64,000 nucleotides of DNA, taken from Pelagomonas calceolata. Taxonomy: Eukaryota; Sar; Pelagophyceae; Pelagomonadales; Pelagomonadaceae. The notes below the pieces were generated by a model, which saw only the letters and a program-made list of their open reading frames with translations, was not told the DNA's origin and searched no databases. The position numbers and the translations under genes are program-made. Location: positions 2,852,001 to 2,916,000 of the forward strand of contig CAKKNE010000003.1 of assembly GCA_918797485.1 (NCBI GenBank). The letters are read 5' to 3'. This document shows, one piece after another, positions 38,667 through 63,450 of the stretch; the first letter of the stretch is position 1; each line of letters begins with the position of its first letter.

Positions 38667-39788
38667 ATGGCGGACGGCTTAGGCGTCGCCCTGTACCAGC
38701 TCCTCGCGAGCTCCCGCGGGTCGCGCGTCGTGGTGGCGTCTGTAAAAGATTACGAAGTGTGTTTTGATTGCAGAAAGGACCTTGCATGCCACCGCGACTG
38801 ATACGAGAAGTCGGGGCCGCGGGAGGGCTCGCGCGTCCGCGTGAGCTGGCGCGACGTCCCAGGAGATGATGACGACGACGTCGCCCCCGGTCTTCATGAC
38901 GCGACCGAATCAGACGATGATGCGGTTGCCGACCCGACCGGGGCGCGTCTCGCCGTGACCCTCGAAAACCTTGATGCTGCGTGCGAGATGCTTCGAGCTC
39001 AACCGCCGACCGAGCTGGAGATCGACTTCGAAGGGTACATTTGTCTTGATGAGTACAACCGCAAGTACGCGGAGAAACTCGAGCGTCCACGCGCCGAGGC
39101 GGCGGGGGCAGCGTCCGAGGCGTGGGTCCTGGGCGACTCGCTGGCCCGGCTGCGCGACGCGATGCTGCCGCGGCTGACCCGGGTTTCCTTGGCGGGGGCG
39201 GACCGACTGCCCGTCGCCATGCTCCGCGTCGCCTTTCCCCTCGATGGAGACGGCCTCGCCGCCCCGGCTCCCTACGACGACGGCAGCGGCTCGTTGCTGT
39301 CCATCGACTTCGCGCCCGGGTCCCCTGCCCGCGACGGCATCGAATCGTACGACTACTGCGATTATCCCCCTTCCATGTATGGCGGAGCAGGCGAAGATTT
39401 TGTTCGCGGCTCCGTGTGGGCCGCGGACCACAGCGCCCGGGGGGAATCAACCGTCCGCGAAAGGTTTCTCCGCCTCTGGAATTTCTTCCCCGCGGCCGCG
39501 CGCGTCCGCATGGACCTCCGCCGGTGGAACGCGTATCGGGGCCGCGACGCCGACCTCCACGACTTCGCGAAGCTGTTCCTGTGCGACCTCGACGGACGTG
39601 CCGTCGAGGTCGCCGGGGTGTGGGCGCACGACGGCTGGTACAAGAGTGTCCTTGTCCTGCACGACGGTTGGGCGAGCGTCGGACCGGAGGGCAATATGCA
39701 ATACCCACTCTTGGAACCACACGGCACGAAGGGACTCGAGGCCAAACGCGAGCAGGTGCATATATGGGGCCCCACATGGGGCCGATGA
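38667..39788 (+). CDS. Acidic protein of unknown function (1 short intron)
   Basis: Proposed exons 38667..38741 and 38811..39788, 350 aa. The downstream frame begins at a GTG with no early ATG, while the same frame upstream starts at an ATG (MADGLGVALYQLLASSRGS). They are separated by an in-frame TGA, which a 69-bp intron with a good donor (GTAAAAG) removes in phase. The second exon has an acidic stretch (DVPGDDDDDVAPG), VTLENLDAACEMLRAQPPTE, a helical LRDAMLPRLTRVSLAGADRL and WAHDGWYKSVLVLHDGW. Family not recognised. Confidence 0.55.
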
Positions 39789-60634: not shown

Positions 60635-62646
60635 ATGCGCGCGCCGCAGCTCGTCTACACCGCGACGGCCTGTGCAGCACTGCGGGCCGCGGCGGTGCGA
60701 CGGCTGAGGCCGACGCGCCGCCTCATCAACATGCGGGGCCTCGACGCCTTTGCCGCCGCCGCCGACGCGAGCTGGACGCGAGCATTGAACGCCGACCCCG
60801 AATCCAAGCAGCACGAGCCGAACAAGAGCTCGCGGCGCGTGAAGAGCGGCCACTACGTCCCCGTCGTGCCCACTGCTTTACAATCGCCGGAGCTCAAATT
60901 GCATTCGAAAGAACTCTGCGAGGAACTAGGCTTGGCGGAGGCCGACGTCAAAGACGAGCGCTTCGCGCGCTTCTTCTCGGGTGATGTGGATGCGCTGAGC
61001 CTGGGCGCGACGTGGGCGACGCCCTACGCGCTGAGCATCATGGTGCCGACTCAGCGTGAAATGAACTTGAACCTGACGCGGTCGCGGCGATGGCGTCCTC
61101 GCGATGCCACCTCGCGTCGATGTCGTCTTCACGATCACATGAGAGTCGACGCGTCGCGTGGATGTATGACGGCGTCCGTGCCACACAGGGCGAGCCGCAG
61201 ACGCGCAACTGCCCCTTCGGCACGGGCGAGGGCTACGGCGACGGGCGGGCCGTGTCGCTCGGCGAGGTTGTTGTAGATGACAAGCGGTGGGAGCTCCAGC
61301 TGAAGGGCGGCGGGCGGACACCGTTCTGCCGGGGCGCGGATGGCAGGGCCGTTTTGAGATCTTCTCTCAGAGAATTTTTAGCGTCGGAGGCGATGCATTT
61401 TCTCAGAGTGCCTACTACAAGAGCTTTGTCGTTGGTCGTATCGCGGACGGAAACGACGAAGCGGCCGTGGTACTCGGGCGCGCGCGACGACGCCGTGCCC
61501 GCTCCGAGTATAAGCGAGGACGACCCTCGCTTGGCCAAGTTCCCGCCACAAGTCCGGAAGCAGCTCATCAGACAATTGATGAGGCAGGGCGGCGACGATC
61601 CCGACGTGATGATCGAAGAAAGCTGCGCCATTACCTGCAGGGTGGCTCCTTCTTTCTCGCGAGTGGGCCACGTCGACTTGTTTTCCAGAAGGGCGCGCCA
61701 GGACGCCATGCGGATGACTGAGTATGAGAAGATCGTGCAGCACGTCATCGCGCGGGAGTACCCGGAATTACTTGGTGAGGACGCTACTAGATTGCCCCAA
61801 GTCGACGACTTAAAACCGGTCGCCCTGAAGTTCGCCGAAGCGTCTCGAGAGAAACTCGCGTCCCTCGCGGCGAACTGGCTGCGCGTCGGCTTCTGCCAGG
61901 GCAACTTCAACGCCGACAACTGCTTAGTTGGAGGAAGGACCATGGACTACGGCCCCTTCGGCTTCCTGGATCAATATGATCCTTCCTTCGCGAAATGGGT
62001 GGGGTCTGGCGACCACTTCGCCTTCGCCAATCAACCTGGCGCTGCTTTAGCGAACTGGGGGACCCTTGTGAGAAGCTTGGCCCCGTTGTTCGATGACCCG
62101 GCGCCTTTACAAGCTTTGCTAGATGATGCGCACGGTTATTTTCAAGCCGCGGTCGACGATTGTTATAGACGCAAGCTGGGCTTTCCTGATGGTGTGGATG
62201 CTTCTGATAAACCCAAGTCGTTGTGGCGGCGGCTCGAGCCTCAATTAAGGGGCCTGGACTACACGATCTTTTTCCGGGAACTGATGAACTGCGTCGAGGG
62301 CGGCGACGCGTCTGTACTAGAGAAAGCGTGCTACGAGCCGCTGACGGAGGAGAAGCGGTCGTTCTTGAATGAATGGTTAAATGACTGGCGTTCCGCATTG
62401 GGAGACACGGCGGGTGTCGCGGAGCGCATGCGTCGCGAGAACCCCAAACATATATTGAGGGAGTGGATGCTCGTCGAGGCGTATGATGCCGCCGGCGCGG
62501 GCGACTGGTCCGTGGCCGAGGAGCTCCACGAATTGATCAGAGAGCCGTACGCTGATAGGGCGCAACTGGACAAAAAGTACTACCGGCGGGCGCCCGATGC
62601 AGCTTTACGGCGGCCGGGGACGGCCTGGATGACCTGATCCTCGTAG
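60635..62646 (+). CDS. SELENOO: SelO protein adenylyltransferase (AMPylase), selenocysteine-containing (1 intron)
   Basis: Exons 60635..61042 and 61189..62646; reading TGA at 62635..62637 as Sec gives 621 aa ending T-U-S-S before TAG. SelO is a mitochondrial pseudokinase that transfers AMP to protein Ser/Thr/Tyr. Family motifs: TPYALSIM/GEPQTRNCPFGT, GYGDGRAVSLGE, LQLKGGGRTPF, LRSSLREFLASEAMHFL, FNADNCLVGGRTMDYGPFGF. In known SelO proteins Sec (or Cys) is the third residue from the end, followed by S-S, exactly as here (Sec619 of 621). The N-terminus is basic and presequence-like. The intron is an eroded introner; splicing restores the conserved IM/GEPQ junction. Confidence 0.9.
61043..61188 (+). 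mobile_element. Eroded introner forming the SelO intron
   Basis: Near the 5' end, CAGCGTGAAATGAAC is a diverged copy of CTGTGTGGAAATCAAC. The 3' end GTGCCACACAG keeps the CACAG acceptor. GATGGCGT and GTCGATG cores lie inside. No clear 8-bp duplication remains. Confidence 0.6.
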
Positions 62647-62667
62647 GTCCCCGTTTGCGTTCTCCAC

Positions 62668-62728
62668 CCCCGCGTGATATATGACGTCGATGCGCGCTTC
62701 GTTGGCGCGTATTGGCCGAGCCGCGGGG
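62668..62728 (+). promoter_or_regulatory. SECIS-like stem-loop in the SelO 3' UTR
   Basis: It starts 21 bp after the TAG. Lower helix 62668..62674 with 62722..62728 (7 bp); internal loop; AUGAC (62681..62685) facing CGAG (62717..62720), giving tandem sheared G-A/A-G pairs; upper helix 62686..62697 with 62705..62716 (12 bp, three G-U). This is the core layout of a eukaryotic SECIS. The apical loop UUCGUUG lacks the usual AA (or CC), so it is a candidate, not a proven element. Confidence 0.6.
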
Positions 62729-62835: not shown

Positions 62836-63450
62836 TTAATCAGGCGCGAGCACGACGTCCAGCACCCGGTCGTGCGCCTCGCGCGGCACGCGCTCGGAGG
62901 ACGGAAGCACCTGCGCGCCCAGGCACACGCCGACGGTCGCCGGCCGCGCGACCGCGGCGGCGTCGGCCGCCGCGTCGGCGCGCGCGAGCCAGTTGTCGTA
63001 GAAGCCCGCGCCGTGGCCGAGGCGGCCGTTGTCGCAGTCGAAGGCCACGCCTGGCACGACGACGAGGTCCACGCGCGCGTCGAGCGCGTCCTCCCGACTA
63101 TCGTCGCGCGGCGGCTCGGCGATGCCCCAGTTCGAGCGGGGAAACGCGTCAATGTCCGCCATGGAGAAGGCCTCGACCATGGCCATGTCCCGCGCCTTGA
63201 CGTCCTCGACGCGGGGCAGGAAGACGCGCTTGTTGGCCGCGAAGGCGGCCTCGAGGATGGGCGCCGTGTCAAGTTCGCCGGGCATGCTGCAGAAGGCGCA
63301 GACCTTCGTGGCGCTTTTCCAATTGTCCCGCGCGAAGAGGCGCTGGGCGACGCGGGCGCTCTCGCTCTGGATTTGAGTAGCTGGCAACGCAGCACAGACT
63401 GCCTTGATGGACCGGCGCAAGGCCTTTTTTGCGGCCAGGATTTCGACCAT
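62836..63450 (-). CDS. 5-formyltetrahydrofolate cyclo-ligase
   Basis: 204 aa. It converts 5-formyl-THF to 5,10-methenyl-THF with ATP, recycling folate. The N-terminal basic helix (AAKKALRRSIKAV) is the ATP-phosphate element, CSMPGELDTAPILEAAFAAN the substrate region, and DLVVVPGVAFDCDNGRLGHG followed by GAGFYD the family signature. Length is typical. No strong targeting peptide. It converges with SelO. Confidence 0.93.
   Translation of the reverse strand: MVEILAAKKALRRSIKAVCAALPATQIQSESARVAQRLFARDNWKSATKVCAFCSMPGELDTAPILEAAFAANKRVFLPRVEDVKARDMAMVEAFSMADIDAFPRSNWGIAEPPRDDSREDALDARVDLVVVPGVAFDCDNGRLGHGAGFYDNWLARADAAADAAAVARPATVGVCLGAQVLPSSERVPREAHDRVLDVVLAPD

Follow-up and report, generated by a model that had tools for sequence, protein, structure and literature searches.

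The window examined here, a stretch of 64,000 nucleotides of Pelagomonas calceolata (C3:2852001-2916000), holds a gene of the SelO family whose reading frame runs into a TGA, two serine codons, a TAG and then a hairpin of SECIS type. This arrangement raises the question whether the TGA is a stop codon or is decoded as selenocysteine (Sec), and, if the latter, whether a hairpin with an aberrant apical loop can be the element responsible. The genome searched comprises 32,445,274 bases in 8 contigs; it has been published as six nuclear contigs (32.4 Mb) plus one plastid and one mitochondrial contig, in a paper whose main text contains no occurrence of 'selen' (PMC9481584). The pelagophyte Aureococcus anophagefferens, with a reported 82 selenoprotein genes in 33 families (PMC7539508), offers a parallel as a member of the same group with a large selenoproteome.

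The gene is laid out as follows (coordinates within the window):

60635-61042, plus strand: SelO exon 1, an open frame of 136 codons in phase 0 with a putative start codon
61043-61188, plus strand: predicted SelO intron (GT...AG), with the ends GTGCCG...CACACAG
61189-62646, plus strand: SelO exon 2, carrying PF02696, with the TGA as codon 619, the TAG as stop and the end AWMT-U-SS-stop
62635-62637, plus strand: TGA, read as the putative Sec619, the third-last residue; it stands where bacterial SelO has the Cys of C-S-S and corresponds to the U in the U-S-S of the paralog
62644-62646, plus strand: TAG, the putative true stop, read from the sequence; TAG is likewise the first stop after the domain in 9 of the 12 other selenoprotein frames used as reference

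The exon 2 frame matched the Pfam SelO family (PF02696) with 226.4 bits against a cut-off of 22.8 (E 8.2e-67 over 61090-62637), the best E-value against solved SelO structures was 2.7e-49, and the NCBIfam SelO/YdiU models also matched, with scores under their curated cut-offs. By sequence the gene is a SelO / YdiU, a member of the protein adenylyltransferase family with that activity predicted. Exon 1 alone gave no Pfam match at E 0.001 and resembles, by eye, the N-terminus of SelO2, the second SelO of the genome. The two exons would join in frame to give 621 residues with codon 619 as the single in-frame TGA.

The 3' end reads ATG-ACC-TGA-TCC-TCG-TAG, and the first-pass annotation, which had noticed the TGA-TCC-TCG-TAG followed by a SECIS-like hairpin, was exact to the base (62635-62646). 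It had also likened this end to the C-S-S of Cys-type SelO proteins. A genome scan for SelO relatives gave 93 confirmed loci, from which 80 bacterial ones were kept; all 80 end in C-S-S, the stop following directly in 79, whereas the sole exception (L070) has nine further residues. The window gene thereby shows the Cys/Sec-Ser-Ser tail of SelO / YdiU, its TGA corresponding to the Cys when counted from the protein end and not by residue-by-residue alignment, the preceding tail residues being different. Viral contigs gave no match to the SelO patterns. SelO2, located on contig C1 and 43% identical to the window SelO over 458 aligned positions, ends in ATG-TCG-TGA-TCG-TCG-TGA, that is, U-S-S-stop. 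The SELENOO of animals ends in U-S-S as well. Among algae, Ostreococcus tauri and Porphyra haitanensis have been reported to possess a Sec-containing SelO (PMC2375036), which resembles the present case in that the SECIS lies on the same transcript. The apparent stop at 62635-62637 almost certainly codes for selenocysteine.

The genome contains machinery for such decoding, as judged from a search that covered tRNA-Sec, SepSecS and SBP2-like proteins. Two copies of tRNA-Sec scored above the Rfam cut-off, one SepSecS gene was found (E 1.6e-111), and a 760-residue frame encodes an L7Ae protein, a 183-residue piece of which has SECISBP2 as its best solved relative (7zjw, E 4.9e-17), with ribosomal L7a behind it (E 0.0011). 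Matches to several protein families included genes whose searched domain contains a single in-frame TGA: GPx (4 of 5 matches), Rdx (2 of 3), thioredoxin/PDI (2 of 42, one of them used), MsrA (2 of 11) and AhpC/TSA (3 of 13). From these families 12 non-SelO loci with one in-frame TGA were chosen as a reference set, and up to 700 nt after each stop were scanned for RTGA, a helix and NGA, only the RTGA and the GA being fixed. One strong hairpin of this form was present in every reference locus, with an additional weak one in L055. Its core started 20-50 nt past the stop codon in 11 of the 12; in the twelfth, an MsrA locus (L054), it apparently lies at 390, because an intron intervenes, and by a hand count it is 21 nt past the stop via the second exon (L048). 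In 11 of the 12 hairpins the TGA is followed by C and the GA preceded by C, although the scan did not impose either. A covariance model, R1, was built from 11 reference hairpins, with SelO excluded and L008 omitted for its long stem. In its alignment all 11 helix pairs vary on both sides, and 87.6% of the cells are paired, versus 55.3% in shuffles; this covariation is partly circular, since the scan had selected stable hairpins.

The hairpin behind the window SelO, its unpaired segments read off directly, consists of:

62668-62674, plus strand: SECIS helix I, 5' strand, CCCCGCG (7/7 pairs with 62722-62728)
62675-62680, plus strand: 5' internal loop, UGAUAU
62681-62685, plus strand: SECIS core, 5' side, AUGAC (AUGA 62681-62684, C 62685)
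62686-62697, plus strand: SECIS helix II, 5' strand (12/12 pairs with 62705-62716, G-U counted)
62698-62704, plus strand: apical loop UUCGUUG, containing neither AA nor CC
62705-62716, plus strand: SECIS helix II, 3' strand (12/12 pairs with 62686-62697)
62717-62720, plus strand: SECIS core, 3' side, CGAG
62721, plus strand: single 3'-side C between core and helix I
62722-62728, plus strand: SECIS helix I, 3' strand, CGCGGGG (7/7 pairs with 62668-62674)

The lower helix begins 21 nt past the TAG, and each element described in the first-pass annotation (7-bp lower helix, AUGA facing CGAG, 12-bp upper helix, UUCGUUG loop) can be read off as claimed. The hairpin has the non-Watson-Crick UGA/GA quartet between two helices that is expected of a eukaryotic SECIS, as AUGA/CGAG, together with a helix II of 12 pairs, several of them G-U and A-U, and a lower helix of 7; AA (or CC) at 10-13 nt past the quartet is absent. 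With its quartet, two helices and internal loop it resembles the eukaryotic type I SECIS, which has no mini-stem (PMC11227280), and it differs from that type in lacking the apical AA and in belonging to a genome with a near-constant C after the UGA and before the GA. SelO2 has a hairpin of the form ATGAC...CGAG at the same distance after its stop (34 nt), supported by position, core and folding, with no significant model score. The gap from UGA to AUGA is only 43 nt in both SelO genes; this spacing may be specific to the lineage, because the minimum distance between UGA and SECIS in mammals is longer.

We consider it about 92% probable that the window SelO is a Sec protein of 621 residues ending in Sec619-Ser-Ser, its UGA being decoded by means of the SECIS at 62668-62728 with a free apical loop. 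The first-pass proposal of a selenoprotein gains support from a TGA where the bacterial relatives have Cys, from the U-S-S of SelO2 and from a hairpin shared with other selenoprotein genes. Both the insertion of Sec at this UGA and the recognition of the hairpin by SBP2 are what the sequence would predict. As in other eukaryotes, the kink-turn core (UGAC/CGA) would recruit SBP2 and eEFSec, a role of the core that is established for mammals; directed by the hairpin, whose apical loop could vary freely, Sec-tRNA-Sec would then decode the UGA, and Sec would be added third from the end, followed by Ser-Ser and the TAG.

The apical loop requires a comparison of its own. One published search pattern demands NTGA followed, at 10-13 nt, by AA or CC (PMC2375036); the SelO of Pelagomonas has neither of these two dinucleotides. 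Vertebrate SECIS elements carry AA in almost all cases and CC in mammalian SelM and SelO, the exact role of these bases being described as not known (PMC3316567). The present gene is thus a further SelO that departs from AA, but the CC of mammalian SelO is an exception confined to two genes, whereas Pelagomonas SelO has UUCGUUG in a genome where AA is missing from nearly all hairpins collected. For this collection the genome was searched for TGACGGC-N20..34-GCCCGA without inspection of the loop, which yielded 84 matches, versus 34 for the reversed pattern. Twenty of the 84 were kept by eye for a good helix (3 already known, 17 new), and 64 were set aside unfolded; on a second look at least one of the latter, at C2:2707894, appears equally good. 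All 17 new hairpins matched R1 with at least 23.4 bits, L169 over 30 nt only, a result that the shared pattern favors for all of them. Upstream of 8 of the 17 a Pfam redox or selenoprotein domain has a TGA at the active position known for it: thioredoxin reductase ending in GCUG, glutaredoxin, Sep15/SelM, AhpC-TSA_2, SelK ending in GGUG, rhodanese (UGSG), DsbA and deiodinase (SUPP). The remaining 9 comprise 6 loci without a Pfam match and 3 with a SAM, MJ1316 or AAA_26 domain.

Together with the 12 reference and 2 SelO hairpins this gives 31 SECIS-like hairpins. At 10-13 nt past the quartet, 2 of them have AA, which the fold leaves unpaired in 1, 12 have CC, left unpaired in 4, and 17, the window SelO included, have neither; among the 14 hairpins not chosen by the pattern the corresponding numbers are 1, 7 and 6. 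The 29 hairpins without AA at the usual place include those of GPx, TrxR, SelK and a SelT-like gene. The loops contain 65 C, 60 U, 32 A and 22 G. In contrast to the loop, the core is RUGAC on the 5' side in 30 hairpins (AUGAU in one) and CGAN on the 3' side in 30 (GGAU in one), TGAC and CGA having been imposed in 17 of the 31. The first-pass annotation was therefore right that the SelO loop lacks AA and CC, and a change peculiar to SelO is ruled out, AA being absent from 29 of the 31 hairpins and CC from 17 of these as well.

These counts bear directly on the best-surviving alternative, namely that the Sec-SelO is real but its SECIS is decaying after loss of the apical AA, decoding being weak or gone. 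Besides the loop itself, a helix II with several G-U and A-U pairs would fit such a history, and decay seems to occur in this genome, because one of its Cys-type PDI genes has an apparent left-over SECIS. Against this stand the intact core and both intact helices of SelO and the same absence of AA behind genes such as GPx and TrxR, and we regard decay as very improbable. The other selenoprotein genes examined share a relaxed design, in which the core sits on a helix of some 10 or more pairs, the loop is rich in pyrimidines and AA is mostly absent, so that SelO has a loop of the kind usual in this species. From these sequences SelO looks like an ordinary kind of selenoprotein gene with a genome-wide, relaxed-loop variant of the SECIS. 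That the SECIS elements of Pelagomonas have given up the apical AA/CC throughout the genome, while keeping a C-flanked UGAC/CGA core on a helix of at least 10 pairs, is a broader claim to which we give slightly better than even odds; the loss perhaps extends to pelagophytes at large. The open literature searched, taken apart from Gobler 2013, SECISearch3 and supplementary files, yielded no AA-less pelagophyte SECIS.

A second alternative, that the TGA is a true stop and both the Ser-Ser-TAG and the hairpin are products of chance in a GC-rich 3' UTR, has to be weighed against the statistics of the hairpin. GC-rich hairpins are common here, and the plain folding energy of the SelO hairpin is unremarkable (z -1.56; 18 of 200 shuffles equally good). 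When the 190-nt 3' region was shuffled with its dinucleotides preserved, the score of the hairpin was reached in 4 of 3000 cases with a free quartet and in 1 of 3000 with TGAC/CGA required, and on both strands of the window 13 places with a loose quartet, or 4 with TGAC/CGA, score as well, that of SelO included. R1 gave its top score in the 64-kb window, 23.4 bits (E 0.0033), to the SelO hairpin (62675-62725), the next matches having 20.5 and 20.1 bits, and among the 148,943 bases of 45 control loci it gave two matches of at least 23.4 bits, namely L048, the MsrA hairpin again, and L026, the Cys-type PDI (next 19.1 bits). At E up to 1 it did not match the hairpins of SelO2 or of L008, a clear GPx. 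Rfam SECIS_1 (RF00031) did not reach E 10 at the SelO hairpin, in any of 12 other selenoprotein loci tested (E-values multiplied over 4227 families) or anywhere in the genome; being blind to 12 of 12 such loci, it was dropped as a test. A later model of 28 hairpins, R2, ranked SelO third in the window (16.0 bits, E 0.14), below two other places with 52720 first, and gave the SelO2 hairpin 4.9 bits (E 5.3) with filters off. Because 17 of its 28 rows had been picked through a fixed GGC...GCC, one of them (L169) matched over 30 nt only, R2 rewards a feature that SelO does not have, and it was set aside in favor of R1.

A descriptor that sets no base preferences in the helix asks for TGAC/CGA, an upper helix of 11 or more with one mismatch allowed and a lower one of 5 or more, limits set after the SelO hairpin had been seen. 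It recovered 8 of the 13 selenoprotein loci with no additional match in them, missing L008, L022, L047, L054 and SelO2. It matched two places in the 128,000 strand-bases of the window, SelO and 38896, and none in the 291,280 strand-bases of 44 control loci. Further window matches were rejected as SECIS elements: 47089 lies opposite the ORF of a WD40 protein, 5052 lies inside an ORF, and 29066 on the minus strand has, by eye, no selenoprotein-like frame. Apart from the hairpin, two Ser codons and a stop would follow a TGA by chance about 4 times in 10,000 (6/64 x 6/64 x 3/64, equal codons assumed), yet they do so in both paralogs, and the C-S-S end is invariant among the bacterial relatives kept. 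A chance origin accordingly ranks a shade below decay and is most unlikely.

That Sec is inserted through another SECIS further downstream, the hairpin at 62668-62728 being incidental, would suit a UGA-to-core distance that is short by mammalian limits, but it is scarcely credible, given that no second candidate passed the filters in the 700 nt after the stop, that the neighboring gene, which encodes a 5-FTHF cyclo-ligase and is convergent with SelO, has its end at 62836, and that the 43-nt spacing recurs in SelO2.

If the genome-wide reading of a relaxed loop is correct, this alga decodes its entire selenoproteome without a feature regarded as almost invariable among eukaryotes, and its machinery must either have lost the component that reads the apical bases or have put another in its place. 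Selenoprotein genes mostly lacking AA would then constitute a natural test in which loops, SBP2 and ribosome parts can be set against the animal system. The usual tools would overlook selenoprotein genes in such algae: the AA/CC rule, by its wording, skips 17 of the 31 hairpins, and Rfam SECIS_1 detects none in the 12 loci tested.

Several minor observations were made on individual loci. In the window, the second descriptor match (38896-38933, plus strand) reads ATGAC...CGAC with a 12-bp helix (one mismatch allowed) and an 8-bp lower helix; it lies within an ORF, the frame upstream reads ...CHRD-TGA-YEK, and it could be a coincidence of coding sequence or an unrecognized selenoprotein. The Cys-type PDI (L026:2093-2145, plus strand; contig C3 near 3787346; CGHC, TTDEL-TGA) has its SECIS-like hairpin about 34 nt past the stop with 29.6 bits in R1, perhaps a relic of a change from Sec to Cys. 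In L154 and L167 the stop TGA apparently lies within or overlaps the RTGA of the SECIS core, which resembles the overlap of stop and core reported in Lokiarchaeia (PMC11227280). The MJ1316-domain gene L164 ends in TGA-TAG and has a hairpin closely similar to that of the SelS-like L166, pointing either to a copied 3' UTR or to a protein ending in Sec. The AAA_26 protein L168, with the C-terminus ...KEKC-U-Gly-Gly-Gly-TGA followed by a SECIS-like hairpin, is a possible selenoprotein, although to our knowledge AAA_26 is not a selenoprotein family. Finally, L157, L159 and L160, all without a Pfam match, end in U-G-stop shortly before a SECIS-like hairpin.
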